Positions 444 through 22,802 of a DNA stretch of 32,121 nucleotides are shown piece by piece. Below the pieces are notes generated by a model. It made no database searches. It worked only from the letters and a program-made list of their open reading frames with translations, and was not told the origin of the DNA. The stretch spans positions 1-32,121 of the forward strand of contig CAMWSM010000027.1 of the NCBI GenBank assembly GCA_947176915.1, given 5' to 3'. The position numbers and the translations under genes were made by a program. The first letter of the stretch is position 1, and each line of letters starts with the position of its first letter. Source of the DNA: an uncultured Porphyromonadaceae bacterium (GTDB lineage Bacteria > Bacteroidota > Bacteroidia > Bacteroidales > Muribaculaceae).

Positions 444-2381
444 ATGAAAACCGGCTATAAAGAAATAGGTTTTGGAAAGCAAACCATAGCGGAGGTATTC
501 GAGGAGTGGTACACCGTACCATCATATCAAAGGCACTACGTATGGGAAAGCGACAATATTAATGATATGCTCGAAGATTTTACGTCTAATTATGCGGAAC
601 ATGGCAATGAGGAATATTTTCTTGGCTCTTACATTATTCAAAATAAAGAGCAGAACAATGATTTGCTGGATGGACAACAACGGATTACTACTTTGTTCCT
701 TTTATTTGCTTTTCTTCGAGACTATAATAGATCCTCTGATGAGGTCAGAGAAAATTGCAAAGCTTTAATTGTCCAGAAAGAGAATAAGATACGTAAGATA
801 GCACAACGAATCAGACTTTCCTATGAAATAAGAGGCAATGTCAAGAATTTCATTGAACAGTATATAATGCCGGATGGAAATATTTCTCAATATTGGTCTG
901 ATATTGTAATAAAAGCTAATGACAAGAAAGAATCCACATCTATTCAAAGGATGTGCAATGCATTATTGTGCTTCAAGGAGTATTTCGATGAGCATACAGA
1001 AATAGATCTTGACATATTACTGGGGTTTATTCTCAATAATGTGGTCATGATTTATATATCAGCAGACTCCCTTGAAGATGCGTTCCGATTGTTTTCCGTT
1101 ATGAATGATCGGGGGCAGAAGTTAAGTAATGCAGACATTTTAAAATCATCAAATCTTGAAAAGATCAGTGATGATACGGATAGAAATAACTATGCCCGAG
1201 GTTGGGAGGAGATGCAGGAAGATATGGGAAATGAATTCGACCGTTTCCTTGCGTATGTCAGAACAATGCTATTAAAGAAACGTCAGAAAACTAATCTTCT
1301 CGATGAGTATGACAAACTGATATTCAAAGCTGGCAAGATGCAACAAGGGAAGGAATTCTTTAACTATGTTTTTAAGGCGTACGAAGACTACAACAAACTC
1401 ATCAATTTAAATGATAATGATGATGCTGAGTATTGTACGCTAATTCGAATTCTCAATAACTCCATGCCATCAACCGATTGGATACCGGTAGTCCTATCGT
1501 ATGGAAGAAAATTTGGCAATACCGGCCTATTGAAGTTTACCCTTAAGGTGGCTTGCAAGAATATTGGCGATGCGGTATGTGGTAAGTCTTCTTCATATCG
1601 TATTGATAATCTTAATAGTATCATAAATCTTATAGAAGATTCTGTGGATAGCAATGCTGTGTTAGAGTCAACCAAATTCTACTCTTTCGATGAACAGGTG
1701 TTTATGGCAAACGTACAGTCGGAGATATATGGACGTAGGTATACTTATGCTTTGTTAATGTTGCTTGAATATAAATATAAGGATAAGTCGGAGTGGAAGG
1801 AGTTTGGTACTATCTCTATAGAACATATCCTTCCACAAAATCCAAAATTGAATAGCAAATGGGTTAAAGACTTTACAGAGGAACAAAGAAGTTTTTATAC
1901 GGATAGAATAGGTAATCTCTGCCTTATCGGAAGAAGGAAGAATGCCTCATTAGGAAATCTGGATTACCAAGAAAAACTGAAAAGGTATTTTGAAAAGAAT
2001 ATTGGTTCGTTTGCCTATACGCAAAAGATTTATAAGAATTATCCAACTGCCTGGACGCCGGAAACTGTTGAAGAGAATCAAAAACGTGTGATTGCTGACA
2101 TAAAAGAAATTTTCGGAATAAACAGTTCTGGAACGGGGATGAATTCCGTAACTTCAAATGATCCAAAAATATCCACGGAGGAAAATCTCACTGATTCATA
2201 TATGCAACGACAGAAAAGCATTTATGCCAATGCATACGAACGGTGGAGTGAAGATGATGACAAAAAACTTGTTGAATTATATAATTCCGGGGTAGATGTT
2301 AAAACTCTTATGTCGATATTTCAGAGAAACGAAGGTTCTATAAAATCCAGAATCAAGAAACTAACCGGTTTGTTCCTATAA
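444..2381 (+). CDS. DUF262/DUF1524 (GmrSD-type) nuclease with C-terminal HTH-like module
   Basis: This 645-residue protein has the two-part layout of GmrSD-type modification-dependent restriction proteins. The N-terminal DUF262 (ParB-like) part shows PSYQRHYVW at about residues 26-34 and the DGQQR nucleotide-binding motif at 76-80. The C-terminal DUF1524 HNH-like part shows IEHILPQNP with a likely catalytic His near 461, then GNLCLIG with Asn near 491 and a downstream NASLGN. A final module (about 600-645: WSEDDDKKLVELY, then SIKSRIKKL) resembles the Myb/HTH-like tails seen on some nucleases and helicases. Known family members cleave modified foreign DNA using NTP hydrolysis; the target here cannot be told. 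The ATG at 444 was chosen because DUF262 begins immediately and a good promoter lies upstream. It neighbours other defence-like genes. Key motifs are intact, so it is probably functional. Confidence 0.88.
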   Translation: MKTGYKEIGFGKQTIAEVFEEWYTVPSYQRHYVWESDNINDMLEDFTSNYAEHGNEEYFLGSYIIQNKEQNNDLLDGQQRITTLFLLFAFLRDYNRSSDEVRENCKALIVQKENKIRKIAQRIRLSYEIRGNVKNFIEQYIMPDGNISQYWSDIVIKANDKKESTSIQRMCNALLCFKEYFDEHTEIDLDILLGFILNNVVMIYISADSLEDAFRLFSVMNDRGQKLSNADILKSSNLEKISDDTDRNNYARGWEEMQEDMGNEFDRFLAYVRTMLLKKRQKTNLLDEYDKLIFKAGKMQQGKEFFNYVFKAYEDYNKLINLNDNDDAEYCTLIRILNNSMPSTDWIPVVLSYGRKFGNTGLLKFTLKVACKNIGDAVCGKSSSYRIDNLNSIINLIEDSVDSNAVLESTKFYSFDEQVFMANVQSEIYGRRYTYALLMLLEYKYKDKSEWKEFGTISIEHILPQNPKLNSKWVKDFTEEQRSFYTDRIGNLCLIGRRKNASLGNLDYQEKLKRYFEKNIGSFAYTQKIYKNYPTAWTPETVEENQKRVIADIKEIFGINSSGTGMNSVTSNDPKISTEENLTDSYMQRQKSIYANAYERWSEDDDKKLVELYNSGVDVKTLMSIFQRNEGSIKSRIKKLTGLFL

Positions 2382-2758
2382 TAGGAATCACAATTGCGGA
2401 TTTTATACGTAAGGAATGTGCTAAGGATAGACATCTGCAAGACGGATTTCTTGCACTGGAAGCCGGCACTTTATTTAAGCCCAATCCCGCCGATCCGACT
2501 TACCCAAGATGGCGTGAACCATGAGTGACTGGTATAAATGGCAATATATGGTCTATCGTGAAATAGGAGACAAAGACAATCGACTCCAATTAGGCTTCGG
2601 CGGAGCATTACGATGAAAAGCGATGTAATGTGCCGTATGAGCGAATGTTGGAGTTGGTGAACGGTACCTTGATAAAGAATTGATTTTTAGGAGATAATAA
2701 AAGTGATATTTCCCAAGTGGAATCACATTCCGAAATCTCGGTAGCCTGTCATCGATCA
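2382..2758 (+). pseudogene. Decayed coding remnants between the nuclease and the DprA-like gene
   Basis: This gap has no normal gene but contains protein-like pieces on the plus strand. One open stretch runs to a TGA at 2522-2524 (ending TYPRWREP). It overlaps by ATGA the start of a 31-codon ORF at 2521 (MSDWYKWQYMVYREIGDKDN). After an apparent frameshift, a third stretch (HYDEKRCNVPYERMLELVN) runs on to about 2683. The coding-like composition and the ATGA junction suggest the ruins of one or two genes. I do not recognise the family, and chance ORFs remain possible. Confidence 0.25.
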
Positions 2759-2761
2759 TTT

Positions 2762-3211
2762 TCATAGATTTTCTAATAATATCGAATTGACAATGGGATT
2801 GTGAGAATAAGCTGATGATTGGGCAAGGAGATTAAAGTTGCCAGTTTTCTTTCCGAGTCTATAGGCAACGTCGTTACCCTCTTTGTCAGCTGCTCGCGCT
2901 CCGATAATGGCTACTGCTTTCTCATCGCGTAGTAAACTGATATTCCCTTTCAGATGGATTATCGGAGGATACTCAGACCCTATCCTGCGAAGCCTTTCCG
3001 GAAATTCCGGATCAGTCCAGACGTATGAGATTACTCCTGCCTCTTCCTGGCAGTCGAGTACGGAATTTGCTTTATCCAGATACTCTTCCAAGATTGGATT
3101 CTCATCGAGCAATTTTTCAAATGTATTGAGTTGCATCTTCAGTATCTCGGAATTTTCCATCCCGAAATACTGAAGAGCAAGCACCTCGTCGATAGTTAGT
3201 GGTTGTTTCAT
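2762..3211 (-). pseudogene. Truncated DprA/SLOG-like protein
   Basis: The 149 residues start like a DprA/Smf-family protein. Residues 1-60 form a helical region, then about residues 66-118 contain DPEFPERLRRIGSEYPP, HLKGN, LLRDEKAVAIIGARAADKEG and AYRLGKK. These match the DprA start of the Rossmann-like SLOG fold, in which the VAIIGAR strand-loop begins the nucleotide or ssDNA-binding site. Family members continue for 130 or more residues (GLALGCD-type and other motifs). Here the match stops after GKK and is replaced by an unrelated 27-residue tail. The catalytically relevant half of the fold is therefore absent. The gene is the last of a minus-strand operon, starting three bases after the preceding ORF's stop. 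Loss by deletion is the simplest reading. Chromosomal dprA acts in natural transformation; operonic stand-alone paralogues like this one may serve conflict systems instead. Confidence 0.7.
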
Positions 3212-3214
3212 TTT

Positions 3215-3425
3215 CTATAGACTATTTTTTACTAATTCATCCCGAGTTGCAAGATAAGACTCAAAGTTTTTCATTATCTTTAGTAGATCAGGCGTTAGCC
3301 TTTTCTCGCATTCCTTTGCAATCCATTTGGGAATAGGATAGACACAAGCTGCCATTGAGCAGGCGATACATGCCTTTGATGCCTTCGGGATGGTTATGCG
3401 ATACTCCTGCGATTGCTCCTAACAT
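3215..3425 (-). pseudogene. Small Cys-rich ORF, apparently inactivated by a one-base insertion
   Basis: An open frame (3215-3418) encodes about 67 residues with a cluster of cysteines (KASKACIACSMAACVYP) and a helical C-terminus (KNFESYLATRDELVKNSL). It has no usable start codon before an internal Met at 3355, and a TAG sits directly upstream. An ATG at 3423-3425, seven bases after the FtsZ-like stop, is one base out of frame. Removing a single G from the TTAGGAG that follows would give a continuous protein of about 69 residues beginning MLEQSQEYRITIPKAS. The stop is three bases before the DprA-like start, which fits an operonic gene. I do not recognise the family. Sequencing error, or translation from 3355 as a 46-residue peptide, are alternatives. 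Confidence 0.5.
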
Positions 3426-3432
3426 AACTCAA

Positions 3433-4287
3433 CTATTCTTCCGGAAGTTTCACATCAAAACCTGAAGCGAGGAAAATTACCGACAGAATATCGTCATCAT
3501 CCGACTCTCCGACTCCCCATTTCACGTCTGCATAAGAAGGTAAAGTCTCAATAAACGCCGTTATCGCCTTCATCTCATTCATCATCAAAGGGCTATTCTT
3601 CGGAACGAAAACCTTTATTAGTACCCTCCGGGCGGTGGAAATGTCGCACTTCTTCATTAAAGGAGATGAAAGAGCCTGCTCAATGGCAAGTCCCACTCTG
3701 TTCTCTCCTGCACCGATGCCGCTCCCGATTGTGAATGTACCGCTCTTTGAAAGGGCAATTCCCAGATCTTCCACATCGATCTTTATTGTACCCTTCTCCG
3801 AGATAAGAGATATTATATCCTGAATGCCTTCTGCAATTGTCTCTTCTACAGAGACAAGGGAATTAATCAGTTCGACAAATGTACATCCTTTTTCAGTCGG
3901 TCTGTTGAAGGTTTCCTTATTTATGATAAGCGAACTGTCGGCTTCATCATTTATCTCACGGGCTACCTCCAATGCTCTAATTACAGCTTTCTCACCTTCA
4001 AAAAGACGCGGGGTGGTGAGGATTGCAGCCAGAGCTCTGCCACTCCTCTTTGTCGATGCCGCTGCTTTCAAAGCTAAGGAATTTTCTTTATTGTTGCCTA
4101 AATCAGCAACCAAAAGCACCAATTCCACTTCCTCTGTAATTTCACCGGTAAGCATTTCGAGTTCGGATTCATTCTTGATACCGAATGTAGCTATCCCTTT
4201 TACTTCATTCTCCGCAATTATACGGACTACATTCAAGCCCGTTTCTCCTATTCCTAACAGGAGAACCTTCTTTGATTTTGGATCCAT
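3433..4287 (-). CDS. Divergent FtsZ/tubulin-like protein
   Basis: The 284 residues align by eye with bacterial FtsZ over nearly the whole core. KVLLLGIGETGLNVVRII (7-24) matches the first glycine-rich strand-loop. LTTPRLFEGEKAVIRAL matches the FtsZ TKPFxFEG segment. EGIQDIISLIS matches the VQGISDLI helix. KIDVED matches the T7 loop. GAGENRVGLAIEQALSSPL and the final IFLASGFD match the C-terminal domain. The signature T4 loop GGGTGTG is missing; LGNNKENS occupies its place. In the T7 loop the two acidic residues are kept but the Asn is Lys. The linker and C-terminal FtsA-binding peptide are absent. It is therefore not the division FtsZ. Nucleotide binding is doubtful from sequence, although polymerisation or scaffolding is possible. 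It starts two bases after the upstream gene's stop, so the two are probably co-translated. It could belong to one of the non-division FtsZ-like families linked to membrane or conflict functions. Confidence 0.72.
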   Translation of the reverse strand: MDPKSKKVLLLGIGETGLNVVRIIAENEVKGIATFGIKNESELEMLTGEITEEVELVLLVADLGNNKENSLALKAAASTKRSGRALAAILTTPRLFEGEKAVIRALEVAREINDEADSSLIINKETFNRPTEKGCTFVELINSLVSVEETIAEGIQDIISLISEKGTIKIDVEDLGIALSKSGTFTIGSGIGAGENRVGLAIEQALSSPLMKKCDISTARRVLIKVFVPKNSPLMMNEMKAITAFIETLPSYADVKWGVGESDDDDILSVIFLASGFDVKLPEE

Positions 4288-4289
4288 TT

Positions 4290-5102
4290 TTATTTGTTCT
4301 TTGAAAGATAACTTCTTATCAAAAAGTCAAGATAGTGATTCAGAGTAGAAAGAGCTCCTCGGAGCATATCTTCTGTCACGCCCTCTGACTTATCAATATT
4401 ATCAATTGCTGAATGCACAAGTTCACTAGCCAGCAGTCGAGAGTAGCGGATATTCACTCCAGCCTTAGCCTTATCTACAAGCTTCTGCAGCCAATCGCTA
4501 TCCCCACGTCCATTATTGATGACAAGCGCGTTCAGTTTGCGGAGATTCGACACCATTTTGTAGCGAAGATTATCAGAGAATTTAGAGTCTTTCAGGTACT
4601 GATTGAATTCTTTATCAAGAGGTATCTTGGGATATCGCTTCGTGTCTTCTGATTCATAGATTTCATACAGCTCCGGTTCAAACTCATAATAATCATAATA
4701 TGAGCGTAGGAAAGCTTCATACCATTTGAAGGCAATTATAACTTCAGAGAGGAACTTCCTGCCCTCCTTTTTCACTTCTTTATTCATCTCCTCAAGTTCT
4801 TGGATATGACTTACCAAAGATGTAAAAGAGAAGTCAAGATAAAGCGTGCGTAAAGTTTCCGAAGAAGCCTTTCGCGCCTCTTCAAGCCATTCTCCAAGGA
4901 GTCTGAACAATTCAGGTTCGCCGGGTTCCCATAGCTCGATGTCTGCCTCTCTGATAAGGTCAATCTGTTTCTTTGCCTCCTCCTCGGAAAGGATTCGGGA
5001 GGTAATGAGCCAATTCTTGAATCCCTCAGAATTGTAGGGGATGCCAAGATACATCTTTTCTATAAGTTCTTCTTTCTTGGTAGTATTCTTTAGATTTGTC
5101 AT
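4290..5102 (-). CDS. Unknown helical protein, first intact gene of the FtsZ-like operon
   Basis: This 270-residue cytoplasmic protein is charged and mostly helical, with no signal peptide or membrane segment. The N-terminal 80 residues (KMYLGIPYNSEGFKNWL, then LIREADIELWEPGEPELF and GEWLEE) form a compact module that recurs in a truncated copy at 6745-6984. The middle (about 95-150) is rich in aromatic residues (YYDYYEFEPELYEIYE). The C-terminal half (DKEFNQYLKDSKFSD, NLRYKMVSNLRKLNALV) faintly recalls the SAM-like helical domains that precede catalytic parts in recombinases and some restriction proteins; that is only an impression. It is two bases upstream of the FtsZ-like gene and has a promoter at 5128-5158. 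I do not recognise the family. Its tight coupling suggests a partner of the FtsZ-like protein. Confidence 0.7.
   Translation of the reverse strand: MTNLKNTTKKEELIEKMYLGIPYNSEGFKNWLITSRILSEEEAKKQIDLIREADIELWEPGEPELFRLLGEWLEEARKASSETLRTLYLDFSFTSLVSHIQELEEMNKEVKKEGRKFLSEVIIAFKWYEAFLRSYYDYYEFEPELYEIYESEDTKRYPKIPLDKEFNQYLKDSKFSDNLRYKMVSNLRKLNALVINNGRGDSDWLQKLVDKAKAGVNIRYSRLLASELVHSAIDNIDKSEGVTEDMLRGALSTLNHYLDFLIRSYLSKNK
4945..5062. repeat. 118-bp perfect direct repeat, copy 1
   Basis: This stretch inside the 5' part of the 270-residue gene is identical, base for base by eye, to 6851-6968. The lower similarity extends farther on both sides (about 4860-5062). The two copies have the same orientation and flank the HNH-like gene. 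Confidence 0.85.
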
Positions 5103-5363: not shown

Positions 5364-6482
5364 CTAACACTCTTCGAGGAGGACACCAGCTTTAAACCGG
5401 GTTTCAGGATTTACACGATATGAAGCAGATATTATACGTAAGGCATCTTTTTCCCATCTATTTTCAAAAATCTTTCTGGATTTTGAAAGACGAGAATTTT
5501 GAGCATTTGGTGAAAAATCAGAATATTCAACATACTCAGCTTTAAGATCCTTTACCTTGGCATTGGGATTTCTCTTCAATGCAGGGTAGAATATATCCAC
5601 AAAAGCTTTCATACCAATATCTCGCAGACAACTAAGCACTTCCTCTTTAATATAACTGTCACTATTATTATTTTTTTTCACTTCAGTCTGTTCCAAATCT
5701 GGCTCATCAAGAAGATCTTCCAGATTTGGAATTACTCTTGAATATGATTCATCATCCGGTATCTTTTCAGAGCTTAGCTCAATTTGGATAACTTTTGATG
5801 CCACTGGTTGCTTTCCCTCAGCAGGTTCAAGTACATTCAGAGAATATATTCCCGGCAACACATATCGGGGATTATAAGTGGGACAATCGATTTTTAATCT
5901 CGCCCAATTGAAGGAAGGTAAGTCATAGTACTTTGATACAATAGCCTTCAAAGTGTTCAAAACTAACGCACCTACATAATAAGAGCCATCCTCCGCAGAA
6001 GGTTTATCAAGAATATCATTGACAAACAGAGGTATTAGAACCACATTCCACATACCTGTAAAATAACTGGGATGCATCGCTTTATTTCCCCATATATGAG
6101 ATATTTTGAAGTTTATAAAATCTGCTTTATGACTTTTATTTCTCTTGAGGTAGTATCCGGTGTACTGTCTGATAAGTGAATCAACACTAGCATTCCCATT
6201 TTTATCTATTTTGATAAGTATATTCCCGGAATTGCCATCATTGAATATCGTCTCCTTTGTTTTCCTGGTCACCTTCTTACCACCATAAAATTTCTTATTA
6301 TTCGATTTTCTGGCAGGCAAGACAATTCCTTGCTTAATACTCTCACACATATTGTCATGGCGATCTTTAACTATCTCTTTGGAAAAGAAATAGCAACCTG
6401 AAATTGAGAACTTTACAAATTCAGTTTCTCCAAACTGTCCTACAAGTTTCTCCATTCCATCAATGGGTTGATTTATTTTCAT
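5364..6482 (-). CDS. Unknown 372-residue protein with a possible HNH-like nuclease core
   Basis: No close family is recognised. Residues 140-180 read ADFINFKISHIWG, then WNVVLIPLFVNDILDKP. The pattern of a His in SHIW followed about 20 residues later by WN-VVLIP resembles the His/Asn core of some HNH-type proteins (CHIW ... NLVLLP). The third metal-binding His is not obvious. The N-terminal part is basic (KKVTRKTKETIF). The C-terminal 100 residues are helical and charged (KRNPNAKVKDLKAEY, then NAQNSRLSKSRKIF). There is no signal peptide or membrane segment. It sits alone on the minus strand between the two copies of the direct repeat, upstream of the FtsZ-like operon, and has its own likely -7 element at 6557-6564. 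Its context argues for a defence or mobile role, but a nuclease call is only a hypothesis. Confidence 0.6.
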   Translation of the reverse strand: MKINQPIDGMEKLVGQFGETEFVKFSISGCYFFSKEIVKDRHDNMCESIKQGIVLPARKSNNKKFYGGKKVTRKTKETIFNDGNSGNILIKIDKNGNASVDSLIRQYTGYYLKRNKSHKADFINFKISHIWGNKAMHPSYFTGMWNVVLIPLFVNDILDKPSAEDGSYYVGALVLNTLKAIVSKYYDLPSFNWARLKIDCPTYNPRYVLPGIYSLNVLEPAEGKQPVASKVIQIELSSEKIPDDESYSRVIPNLEDLLDEPDLEQTEVKKNNNSDSYIKEEVLSCLRDIGMKAFVDIFYPALKRNPNAKVKDLKAEYVEYSDFSPNAQNSRLSKSRKIFENRWEKDALRIISASYRVNPETRFKAGVLLEEC

Positions 6483-6744: not shown

Positions 6745-6984
6745 TTAACCCTGATACTGATCAAGGATTTCGAGTTCAAGGGCTTCTTCAAGCCAATCCC
6801 CAAGAAGTCTGAAAAGTTCCGGTTCGCCGGGTTCCCAGAGTTCGACGTCCGCCTCTCTGATAAGGTCAATCTGTTTCTTTGCCTCCTCCTCGGAAAGGAT
6901 TCGGGAGGTAATGAGCCAATTCTTGAATCCCTCAGAATTGTAGGGGATGCCAAGATACATCTTTTCTACAAGATCTTTTTTCAT
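6745..6984 (-). pseudogene. Truncated copy of the 270-residue operon gene
   Basis: The ATG at 6982-6984 begins MKKDLVEKMYLGIPYNSEGF and matches the N-terminal module of the 270-residue protein almost perfectly for about 70 residues, through GDWLEEA. It then diverges into LELEILDQYQG and stops after 79 residues. A TACCTTTG element at 7010-7017 lies just upstream, like the intact gene. The remaining two thirds and any downstream partner genes are missing. The frame also extends upstream to an ATG at 7065, but that part overlaps the promoter-like element and has no counterpart in the intact gene. It may be a relic of an operon replaced or displaced by the neighbouring cassette, or a free-standing N-terminal domain. 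Confidence 0.75.
6851..6968. repeat. 118-bp perfect direct repeat, copy 2
   Basis: This is identical to 4945-5062 and lies 1,906 bases from it, within the truncated copy of the same gene. Flanking sequence outside the block is still similar but has many differences. This pattern suggests gene conversion or recombination using this segment as homology. Confidence 0.85.
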
Positions 6985-7009
6985 AGTTATTGAGTTTTCT
7001 ATCCGGCTG

Positions 7010-7017
7010 CAAAGGTA
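7010..7017 (-). promoter_or_regulatory. Probable -7 element of the truncated gene copy
   Basis: TACCTTTG on the minus strand is in the same position relative to the start codon as in the intact copy (25-26 bases). No good -33 element is visible. Confidence 0.4.
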
Positions 7018-7137
7018 ATACCCACGATGTATAGGCATATTTAAGGCATGTATCCTCCGATACACCTATATTTATTATGCATAAAAGTAAGTTAACTTAA
7101 GAAAATTAATAATTGTTTCGCAGTGCCAATATGACCT

Positions 7138-20982: not shown

Positions 20983-21768
20983 ATGAATCTCTTTACCAAA
21001 ATATCGATTGATCTGGCTAATCAAAGAAACTATCTTGATCAGTTATTTAGAGTTTATCCTCTTGCTCCCGACAGCGTCAGAACTATCTCTAAAAGGGTCT
21101 GGCAGGAAATAGAGGATAGCTATAATAATGGGAATAATGAGGCTCTTTTCCGTGCTCTTTTAAAATTGAAATATTTTCCGATTAAAGATAGTTATGTGCC
21201 ATACTTTAGAAAAGATAAAACTGCTATAAAAAGAAACCCTCAGACTGTAAATAGAATTTGCGGGCGCATCAGGGAATTAGGATTGGACAGATTATATGAA
21301 AAGGTTACTGAGCCTAAGGAAACCAACAGGCAAATGGGTCCTTTATTCAAAAGATGGATCGACTCGGGAGTTCTGGGTGTGATTCCTTGTGATGAAGATC
21401 AATTCGTTGCGACCAATGATAATGCCATATTAAAAGGGTCGGATACTTCTTTAAAAGAATTTGCTGCGTCTCATCTTGGTTTTATCCGCGAAGATGACAA
21501 AGGGTTTGATTTTTTAGGGAGATTTAACAGCACATACGTGGTTGGAGAGGCTAAATTCATTACGGATGAAGGGGGACACCAAAATGATCAATTTCTGGAT
21601 GCGATGACCACTCTTAAGACTAAGACTCGCTGGAATGTCAAGACTGTGGCAATCCTTGACGGAGTATTATATATCCCTGGTAAAAAGAAAATGTATAAGG
21701 CTATTACATCACAGGATGTCAATGTTATGAGTGCCCTTGTTCTCAGAGAATTTCTTTATAGCTTATGA
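20983..21768 (+). CDS. Type II restriction endonuclease
   Basis: The 261-residue protein has a PD-(D/E)XK nuclease core: Asp near 176 in KGFDFLGRFN, then VVGEAKF with Glu 189 and Lys 191, spaced as in restriction enzymes, followed by GGHQNDQFLDAM. This pattern recalls the Tsp45I-type family, but the family is suggested only by eye. The N-terminal helical half is probably used in DNA binding. Its stop overlaps the start of the methyltransferase (ATGA), as expected of a type II R-M pair. The recognition site cannot be predicted reliably. The pair is flanked by unrelated genes, which suggests insertion by horizontal transfer. All active-site residues appear intact. Confidence 0.8.
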   Translation: MNLFTKISIDLANQRNYLDQLFRVYPLAPDSVRTISKRVWQEIEDSYNNGNNEALFRALLKLKYFPIKDSYVPYFRKDKTAIKRNPQTVNRICGRIRELGLDRLYEKVTEPKETNRQMGPLFKRWIDSGVLGVIPCDEDQFVATNDNAILKGSDTSLKEFAASHLGFIREDDKGFDFLGRFNSTYVVGEAKFITDEGGHQNDQFLDAMTTLKTKTRWNVKTVAILDGVLYIPGKKKMYKAITSQDVNVMSALVLREFLYSL

Positions 21769-22802
21769 TCGATAACAACCTAATTATAAAAGGAGACAAT
21801 ATCAAGGGAATGAATTGGCTTCTGGAGAATGGATATGAGGACAAAATAGATTTGGTCTATATAGACCCTCCTTTTGCCACAGGTGGAACTTTTGGTATTG
21901 ATAGGAATGGTCGTATAGCCACTATCAGTAAATCAAAAGATGCAAATATTGCATACACTGACAATCTGCAAGGGAAAGATTTTATCGAATGGTTAAGGAA
22001 ACGAATTGTTCTAATACATCGCCTTCTTTCTCCACGAGGTTCTCTCTACCTTCACATTGATTATAAAATAGGTCATTACGTTAAGGTGATGTTAGATGAG
22101 GTTTTCGGAATCGAAAACTTCAGAAACGATATCACCAGAATCAAATGTAACCCGAAAGGGTTTTATAGAGTCGGTTACGGCAATATAAAGGATATGATAC
22201 TTTTCTATTCAAAGGGAGCAAAACCTATATGGAATGATATCCAGATTCCCTGTTCGGAAGAGGATATAGCAAAAAGATATAATAAGATAGATAAGCAAGG
22301 GAGACGGTATACCACCGTGCCGATTCATGCGCCGGGAGAAACCAAGGATGGGAGCACTTCACAAGCTTTCAGAGGAACCTATCCACCGAAAGGGCGTCAT
22401 TGGAGAAGCTCAATTGACGAATTGGAAAGATTGGATGACATGGGGCTTATTGAATGGTCCGCTAACGGTAACCCGCGTAAAATAAATTATGCTGATGACC
22501 ATTTAGCGAAGAAACAACAGGATATATGGGAATATAAAGATCCCATATATCCTATTTATCCTACGGAAAAAAATTTGGATATGCTGAAGTATATCGTACA
22601 AAACTCCTCAAATCCTGATTCAATTGTTCTTGATTGTTTCTGTGGTTCCGGGTCAACTTTGCTGGCAGCTGACTTATGTGAGAGGAGATGGATCGGTATT
22701 GACAAGTCGGATATTGCAATTTCCGTAACTCGAAAAAGGATGAACTGTAATTCTATATTCAACTCAGACCTTTTTGATTTTATTGATATTTCAGTAGACT
22801 AA
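21765..22802 (+). CDS. DNA methyltransferase of the R-M pair (beta class)
   Basis: The 345 residues show the DPPF catalytic motif early (VYIDPPFATGG, Asp 34) and the FCGSGST cofactor motif late (about 292-298, then RWIGIDKS). This order, motif IV before motif I, defines the beta class of amino-methyltransferases; DPPF favours N6-adenine, with N4-cytosine possible. The region between (about 120-260) is the likely target-recognition domain, containing RGTYPPKGRHW. It transfers methyl from S-adenosylmethionine to protect the site cut by the upstream enzyme. Start and stop of the two genes overlap by four bases, so the protein levels are coupled. Its TAG or TAA region abuts the convergent TolC-type gene, with only two bases between stops. 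Confidence 0.88.
   Translation: MIDNNLIIKGDNIKGMNWLLENGYEDKIDLVYIDPPFATGGTFGIDRNGRIATISKSKDANIAYTDNLQGKDFIEWLRKRIVLIHRLLSPRGSLYLHIDYKIGHYVKVMLDEVFGIENFRNDITRIKCNPKGFYRVGYGNIKDMILFYSKGAKPIWNDIQIPCSEEDIAKRYNKIDKQGRRYTTVPIHAPGETKDGSTSQAFRGTYPPKGRHWRSSIDELERLDDMGLIEWSANGNPRKINYADDHLAKKQQDIWEYKDPIYPIYPTEKNLDMLKYIVQNSSNPDSIVLDCFCGSGSTLLAADLCERRWIGIDKSDIAISVTRKRMNCNSIFNSDLFDFIDISVD

Follow-up and report, generated by a model that had tools for sequence, protein, structure and literature searches.

A divergent FtsZ-like protein with most of its GTP site lost, in recurrent Muribaculaceae gene clusters with DprA-like and ADP-ribosylglycohydrolase genes

The window (the whole stretch analysed, 32,121 nucleotides, contig 27 of a 3.0 Mb assembly, in 139 contigs, of a gut bacterium of the Muribaculaceae) carries a divergent gene of the FtsZ type, here called FTZ, within a minus-strand run that comprises, in order of transcription, a truncated copy of a gene for a helical protein (HEL), ORF372, HEL itself, FTZ, a wrecked ADP-ribosylglycohydrolase gene (ADPRG) and a truncated DprA-like open reading frame (ORF). 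The features are as follows (aa, amino acids).

3433..4287, minus strand: FTZ, FtsZ-like gene, 284 aa; GTP site largely lost, T7 aspartates and C-domain kept, no C-terminal linker or tail
4290..5102, minus strand: HEL, 270 aa, all-helical; the SAM-like (core-binding) domain of phage integrases is matched by distant homologues
3242..3425, minus strand: ADPRG remnant with the start, an HNHPEGIKG piece and the C-terminus; internal parts lost, frame broken
2762..3211, minus strand: DprA-like ORF, 149 aa, cut inside the SLOG domain; matches Pfam DNA_processg_A and ShosA
5364..6482, minus strand: ORF372, a probable associated gene whose C-terminal ~90 aa recur elsewhere
6745..7065, minus strand: truncated second HEL copy (5' part), a direct repeat of HEL DNA
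444..2381, plus strand: GmrSD-type (DUF262) restriction gene, a convergent neighbour; defence context, outside the FTZ operon

A first-pass annotation of this DNA had described four tightly spaced minus-strand genes. The HEL, FtsZ-like and DprA-like ORFs are where it placed them, HEL and FTZ being separated by only 2 bp, but there is no intact four-gene operon because ADPRG is wrecked and the DprA-like gene is truncated. The supposed small Cys-rich ORF was rejected as a real gene: 3242–3425 opens with an MLGAIAG start, continues with the HNHPEGIKG piece and ends with the C-terminus in a different frame, and it matches an ADPRG hidden Markov model (HMM) at 6.2e-24 over positions 216–261 of 265. 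The DprA/SLOG-like assignment of the remaining ORF holds (Pfam DNA_processg_A, 4.1e-10) for what is left of the gene, which aligns to model positions 4–125 of 279 and continues into unrelated sequence; though truncated, it still matches PADLOC ShosA (2.8e-12). DNA identity between the window and a related locus, L034, is mosaic (72% for FTZ and HEL, 82% for DprA, 94% and 97% for the ADPRG pieces, which correspond to parts of the full-length L034 gene), and the second HEL copy forms a 206-bp direct repeat, 92% identical to 4876–5081. A larger gene cluster is preserved in the window only in decayed form.

That 3433–4287 encodes an FtsZ-like protein, as first read, is borne out by both structure and sequence. 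The AlphaFold model (pLDDT 79, pTM 0.79) has FtsZ as its top Foldseek match in the PDB (E 2.5e-15), and the best 50 of the 652 PDB matches at E<=1e-3 are all FtsZ. FtsZ_C is the only Pfam family recognised in FTZ (1.2e-7, 32.3 bits against a cut-off of 27, residues 184–277); the NCBIfam ftsZ model is matched at 3.6e-21, yet with 75.9 bits against a cut-off of 295. By the model, Foldseek and Pfam taken together, FTZ has the fold of the FtsZ/tubulin superfamily, with N-domain, H7 and C-domain. The absence of GGGTGTG and of the division C-terminus was also read correctly from the start: the protein stops at 284 aa, right after FtsZ_C, and hence has no C-terminal linker or tail. With neither the GTP pocket signature nor this tail, FTZ lacks two features that define a functional division GTPase; it does have a third, the T7 synergy loop.

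Homologues of FTZ numbered 54, of which 42 are 280–294 aa long and at least three of the remainder are native FtsZ-like. For a motif comparison 48 FTZ sequences (leaving out the fragments P0040, P0044 and P0045 as well as P0051–P0054, and including P0047) were aligned to native FtsZ, a column being called native-invariant if conserved at 90% or more in 30 native sequences, 29 of which are from the genus of the window; the outgroups P0053 and P0054 were excluded from the native set. The FTZ GTPase domain retains 27 of 98 such columns, H7 five of 22 and the C-domain 35 of 59, with DVKWG kept at 79–94%. Within the GTPase domain the T1 loop retains three of 10 invariant columns, T4 two of 12 and the T2/T3 block one of 27, with 15 deleted, while the T6 Asn is present in 0%. 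In the T7 loop, N-x-D-x-x-D, the Asn is found in 69%, the first Asp in 88% and the second Asp in 96%. With clear loss at T1–T4 and T6 and T5 largely kept, the nucleotide site, as judged from the alignment, is mostly dead. The protein had been taken for a polymer-forming one; because the 48 members have lost most of the GTP site, though not the T7 aspartates, it is unlikely to polymerise by itself.

Five loci carry this type of FTZ: the window and four from relatives, designated L002, L033, L034 and L035. FTZ is full length or nearly so at all five (97–100% of the model), and all five have ADPRG and DprA or remnants of them, so that the pairing of FtsZ-like and DprA-like genes seen in the window does recur. 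The helical gene occurs with these pairs too: HEL was found by HMM at four of the five loci, and at the remaining one, L033, BLAST shows a protein of the HEL cluster. The first-pass annotation was to be abandoned if there were no tubulin/FtsZ match or no conserved linkage; an FtsZ match in the PDB exists and the genes are linked in relatives. The set is larger than the four genes envisaged, as relatives have HEL, FtsZ-like, ADPRG and DprA genes, in some cases with U260 and SprT, and an FtsK-like motor also occurs (see below). U260, for whose function only sub-threshold SH3/PUA-like matches were obtained, is present at three of the five loci, once broken. ADPRG and DprA are full length in L002 and L035, and broken pieces of DprA, ADPRG and/or U260 occur at the window locus and at L033 and L034. 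The FTZ-adjacent HEL of L002 has just 154 aa; a full-length HEL lies further upstream there and an extra FTZ remnant is present. L035 also carries SprT, three U260 proteins and, besides its FTZ, a short protein with an FtsZ C-domain. U260 itself is present in 28 of 397 genomes of the family, and 20 stretches around it contained HEL in nine, ADPRG in five, DprA in seven, SprT in two and the FtsZ C-domain in two by HMM (three counting the BLAST-clustered L067), counts that include fragments and matches several kb away; eight of the 20 show none of these. Linkage is stated here as raw locus counts. These data support recurrent linkage of FtsZ-like and DprA/SLOG genes in islands whose surroundings include established or candidate defence genes, namely DprA proteins most like ShosA together with PDC-S10, PDC-S26, restriction–modification and GmrSD genes in or near the islands.

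A second cluster lies in the same genome on contig 88 (L089), in the order DprA, HEL, U260, ADPRG, FtsK-like, FtsZ-like, followed by a scrap of SprT. Its ADPRG and DprA are full length, the latter matching PADLOC ShosA at 1.3e-58, and its FtsK-motor protein scores 101 bits with FtsK_SpoIIIE. The 338-aa FtsZ-like protein reaches 19 bits with Pfam Tubulin, below the 33-bit cut-off, and is probably related to FtsZ, since it matches both native FtsZ and the split halves described below. At a contig end in another genome (L120) FtsK-like, ADPRG, FtsZ-like and SprT genes stand in a row, and in a metagenomic protein, P0047, an FtsK gamma domain is fused to FTZ. No FtsK-like gene was found by HMM within the fetched stretches of the five FTZ loci.

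Among the partner proteins, ADPRG of relatives matches Pfam ADP_ribosyl_GH (4.2e-40 in L035, 2.2e-36 in L089), and T-D-D-T and G-D-x-D-T, which we take to be the catalytic motifs of ADP-ribosylhydrolase, can be read in L002, L034, L035 and L089. It fits ARH3 better than 6dre (2e-5, a weak match); 6dre and 6drh are presumably Tri1. Window HEL matched no Pfam family, and no PDB structure resembles its model (pTM 0.51) significantly. Phage_int_SAM_5 (cut-off 22.3 bits) is matched by two related HEL proteins, at 27.9 and 24.6 bits, and none of the HEL proteins scanned has a Pfam match to a recombinase catalytic domain. ORF372 likewise matched no family in the Pfam scan, its C-terminal ~90 aa recurring in two further genomes (L073 and L075) as short ORFs close to HEL/U260.

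Several further observations were made at these loci. A Tsp45I-type restriction endonuclease and an N4/N6 methylase, both nearly full-length family matches, lie in the window at 20983–22802 (plus strand). A possible mobile or boundary element of 135–148 bp, 81–84% identical, occurs at window 2581–2727, L033:5097–5241 and L034:14786–14920; in L033 it lies ~6 kb from DprA, in the other two 3' of that gene. A boundary repeat of this sort would mark the genes as integron-like cassettes, a reading not adopted here. In L002 a DUF3990/DUF3791 pair (2909–3642, minus strand) lies ~4.6 kb from FTZ and is a possible ADP-ribosylating partner, at this one locus only; we take DUF3990 to be ADP-ribosyltransferase-like. 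At L067:6389–7408 (plus strand) an ADPRG homologue seemingly without the catalytic aspartates, and so perhaps a second pseudo-enzyme, adjoins an FtsZ-C-like protein of 373 aa, and at L075:12190–13959 (minus strand) a 589-aa AAA ATPase, most like IetA in PADLOC, lies beside ADPRG, SprT, DprA, HEL and U260.

A search with the L089 FtsZ-like protein matched 350 of the 397 family genomes, mostly through native FtsZ, and 20 stretches were fetched; apart from L120 and a fragment in L121 these carry stand-alone halves of FtsZ. The halves were read by eye; the counts exclude ORFs below 100 aa, the five complete FTZ proteins and L089, L120 and L121. Thirteen ORFs are N-halves with GGAG in 13/13, the T4 motif G-x-x-T-G in 12/13 and the T6 Asn in 13/13; 12 of them stop before T7 and that of L130 runs into other sequence, inside a 351-aa ORF. 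Twelve ORFs (including those of L035, L069 and L071) are C-halves without the GTP pocket, which keep the first T7 Asp in 10/12 and the second in 12/12; those of L122, L128 and L135 have a shortened N-domain without GTP motifs and the other nine little or none. N-half homologues numbered 95, of which 80 are 161–186 aa long. Outside the family no stand-alone N-half was seen among the matches listed from 374 genomes of the order (E 1e-13), where the frames have at least 259 aa and nearly all more than 390, and the few members of the window's family in that sample yielded none either. The 20 stretches contain a calcineurin-type phosphoesterase in 11 (adjacent in seven), WYL-type regulators in nine, RtcB in six, and small SLOG proteins and RF-1-domain proteins in four each; in L123 the phosphoesterase is PDC-S10 (6.6e-71) and the adjoining nuclease PDC-S26 (3.8e-67) by PADLOC. 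Islands of this kind (L122, L123, L124, L127, L128, L135, L137, L138 and others) hold RtcB, an RF-1-domain release factor, WYL, a metallo-beta-lactamase (MBL) RNase, phosphoesterase and PDDEXK_4 in a mix that varies by stretch.

In a tree FTZ forms one clade with support of 100/100 on a long branch. Descent from the genus's own FtsZ is compatible with this tree and not proven by it, because the outgroups P0053 and P0054 are themselves placed on a long branch. Matches clearly above the level of native FtsZ occur in at least four of the 397 family genomes, all of the window's genus, although 381 match in an FTZ search, nearly all through native FtsZ; one scan of genome contigs yielded a single FTZ locus, L002. 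FTZ was rejected as a phage gene, the viral contig scan giving no relative and tblastn against phages (13 records) only partial matches below 60% identity, and as a plasmid gene, tblastn (56 records) again giving only partial matches below 60% identity; among the ten phage and plasmid matches listed, five are annotated as cell-division FtsZ. Ratios of nonsynonymous to synonymous change (dN/dS) were computed pairwise for four FTZ loci, leaving out L035, and are rough because of recombination and the divergence of synonymous sites; saturation affected several pairs of ADPRG and of DprA. The six FTZ pairs gave 0.25–0.33 (window against L002, 0.224/0.721), a single HEL pair 0.14 and the 5' part of DprA 0.12–0.25. 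FTZ is under purifying selection.

The nearest comparison is native FtsZ of the same genome (G000:C89, a 464-aa open frame), a possible ancestor of FTZ, which has the fold, C-terminal domain and T7 aspartates in common with it; relative to native FtsZ, FTZ lacks T2/T3, GGGTGTG, the T6 Asn and the C-terminal linker and tail, and it is accessory and patchy in occurrence. FtsZm of magnetotactic bacteria is, like FTZ, a truncated FtsZ paralogue in a genomic island but has kept its GTPase and has unrelated neighbours. A DprA-like component is shared with ShosTA/PsyrTA (PADLOC ShosA and PsyrA), in which the ShosT partner is a phosphoribosyltransferase toxin; no match to ShosT was found among the window and L089 proteins scanned, a set short of every ORF, and the FTZ clusters have other partners in its place. 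The divergent FtsZl1 and FtsZl2 of Makarova and Koonin (2010) are likewise accessory proteins beside a conventional FtsZ, but, in the part of that paper drawn on here, they keep the GTP-binding motif, FtsZl1, which is also marked by a coiled coil, in variable operons with vWA, kinase, GTPase and OmpA genes and FtsZl2 alone (PMC2875224), whereas FTZ has lost the motif and has DprA, ADPRG and HEL as neighbours; no vWA or P-loop GTPase was found among the window-locus genes scanned. The Tre1/Tri1 toxin–immunity pair of the type VI secretion system (cited in PMC6459960) also links an ADP-ribosylhydrolase to FtsZ, and a hydrolase of its DraG/ARH type is present in relatives' FTZ clusters and as a remnant in the window. 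Here, by contrast, an FtsZ paralogue is involved, the 6dre match is the weak one given above, and the window and L089 genes that were scanned included no recognisable FtsZ-directed ADP-ribosyltransferase toxin of the Tre1 kind. In the sections cited of PMC6459960, YpsA, a SLOG protein, prevents the FtsZ ring from assembling, and a connection to ADP-ribosylation is raised by its authors as a possibility; this ties SLOG, FtsZ and possibly ADP-ribose together functionally, as may hold for the FTZ clusters. YpsA, unlike these, is a Firmicutes protein studied by overproduction with no FtsZ paralogue involved. CapRel-Ebc, which senses phage T7 Gp0.4 with FtsZ, similarly makes FtsZ an immune-sensing platform (PMC13423816, in excerpt) but uses the host's own FtsZ, whereas the clusters here hold a paralogue. 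The cluster shares one component each with FtsZ, FtsZl1, ShosTA and Tre1/Tri1 yet fails the defining features of each. To our knowledge no system with this gene set has been described, and open-access full-text searches, which do not cover subscription papers and preprints, returned no paper on split or disabled FtsZ in such islands.

We tentatively propose that the locus, decayed as it is, represents a modular conflict/repair island of Muribaculaceae in which an FtsZ paralogue has turned into a filament-capping inhibitor of division. In FtsZ the T7 loop completes the GTPase site of the neighbouring subunit, and inhibitors of the SulA and MciZ type attach to the C-domain of FtsZ, at sites such as that near T7 (both from the portion used of PMC5624674). 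As the fold, the C-domain and the T7 aspartates are kept, FTZ should be able to dock through its T7 face to the side of host FtsZ that carries GTP, perhaps stimulating hydrolysis of that GTP; as T7 is kept without a working GTP site, FTZ would offer one filament face only and should cap, being unable to accept the next subunit, so that filament growth would stop and division halt. The GTP-pocket half and the T7 half would each likewise offer one filament interface and might act as caps at either end or as a two-part subunit. DprA/SLOG, HEL (with a possible recombinase-like DNA-binding domain), the FtsK-like motor and the SprT protease might sense or process damaged or foreign DNA, DNA or phage thereby perhaps triggering the response, and the ADP-ribosylhydrolase might reset or gate it. 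Capping is ranked first because FTZ and each split half present one face.

Several results weigh against this proposal. The loss of the GTP site is partial, since T5 retains six of nine invariant columns with its Glu at 98%, and T6, its lost Asn aside, five of 10. T7 as a whole retains only five of 11, so that retention of its aspartates could be partly inertia, and the loop is not uniformly kept: the window FTZ has Lys, Asp, Asp, with Lys for the Asn, and Asn replaces the second Asp in the L035 FTZ (outside the 48) and the first in the FtsZ-like protein of L120. In several loci FTZ is intact although DprA and ADPRG have decayed, so the partners may not all be required at once. The two types of half share a stretch in only four of the 20 cases (L122, L128, L135 and L138), and there lie 0.2–7 kb apart. 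Finally, FTZ changes faster than HEL or DprA (dN from the window copy 0.22–0.33), a pace more in keeping with recognition of an opponent that itself changes than with capping of a conserved host FtsZ.

The last of these points leads to a reading that we regard as somewhat unlikely, in which FTZ and the halves mimic host FtsZ and either draw anti-FtsZ factors of phages or rival bacteria away from it or, in complex with such a factor, trigger their partner genes, and in which ADPRG might strip ADP-ribose from FtsZ or from the decoy. It is placed close behind capping because FTZ evolves fast and because Gp0.4 together with FtsZ switches on CapRel-Ebc, for which, in the part of that study used here, presumed non-polymerising FtsZ variants suffice (PMC13423816). 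The patchy presence of FTZ and its defence-gene neighbours agree with such a role, as do FtsZ-targeting ADP-ribosylating toxins with bifunctional immunity proteins, known by title (cited in PMC6459960). A decoy, however, needs no catalytic T7 aspartates, and FtsZ D209C is still a co-sensor in the same excerpts (PMC13423816); ADPRG, which would be the reversing enzyme, changes at nearly the pace of FTZ (dN of the full-length genes between L002 and L034, 0.22 against 0.24) and is closer to ARH3 than to 6dre; and the proteins scanned near FTZ included no recognisable ADP-ribosyltransferase, save for the distant DUF3990/DUF3791 pair of L002. DprA/SLOG and ADPRG would fit either reading, as YpsA, a SLOG protein, disrupts the Z-ring and has a possible tie to ADP-ribose (PMC6459960, in the sections cited).

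Improbable in our view is a device, likened to a borrowed terminus/division apparatus, in which an FtsZ-like scaffold with the FtsK-like motor and HEL would move, resolve or repair island or host DNA. The runs of FtsK-like, FtsZ-like and ADPRG genes in L089 and L120, the P0047 fusion and the Phage_int_SAM_5 matches of two HEL relatives point that way, as does the fact that DprA and SprT belong to DNA metabolism. Some jumbo phages use tubulin/FtsZ-like proteins for DNA segregation, according to the part consulted of PMC7824862, but FTZ, with most of its GTP site lost, would hardly form a cytomotive filament of its own, the FtsK-like gene is seen by HMM at none of the five FTZ loci and HEL has no recognised catalytic recombinase domain. 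Least probable is that these are inert cassettes, fragments of formerly functional genes shuffled by recombination and kept by chance, for although the broken genes of the window, L033 and L034, the window's HEL fragment and mosaic identity to L034, and the FTZ remnant and short HEL of L002 are what such decay would leave, FTZ is near full length at every locus with dN/dS well below one, the sizes of FTZ and N-half homologues are uniform, the T7 aspartates are selectively kept and ADPRG and DprA are full length in L002, L035 and L089.

Returning to capping, it may be, though we hold this with some reserve, that the Muribaculaceae have taken FtsZ apart for use as a weapon or sensor, with a separate GTP-pocket half, a T7 half and a dead-site fused form in recombining conflict/repair islands alongside DprA/SLOG, ADP-ribosylhydrolase, FtsK-like, integrase-like and RNA-repair genes, these forms capping or impersonating the host division filament once attack by phage or toxin is sensed. 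FtsZ is essential and usually conserved, and SLOG, ADP-ribose and FtsZ have so far been linked by scattered observations (YpsA, the FtsZ-directed ADP-ribosylating toxins and CapRel), which the FTZ cluster unites in one testable set of genes. If the proposal is true, nature would have dissected the protofilament interface, the GTP-binding and GTP-activating halves being present as separate or selectively disabled genes, and the control of cell division would be tied to bacterial immunity: a disabled or split FtsZ may allow these bacteria, when infected by phage, to halt division or to detect the attack.

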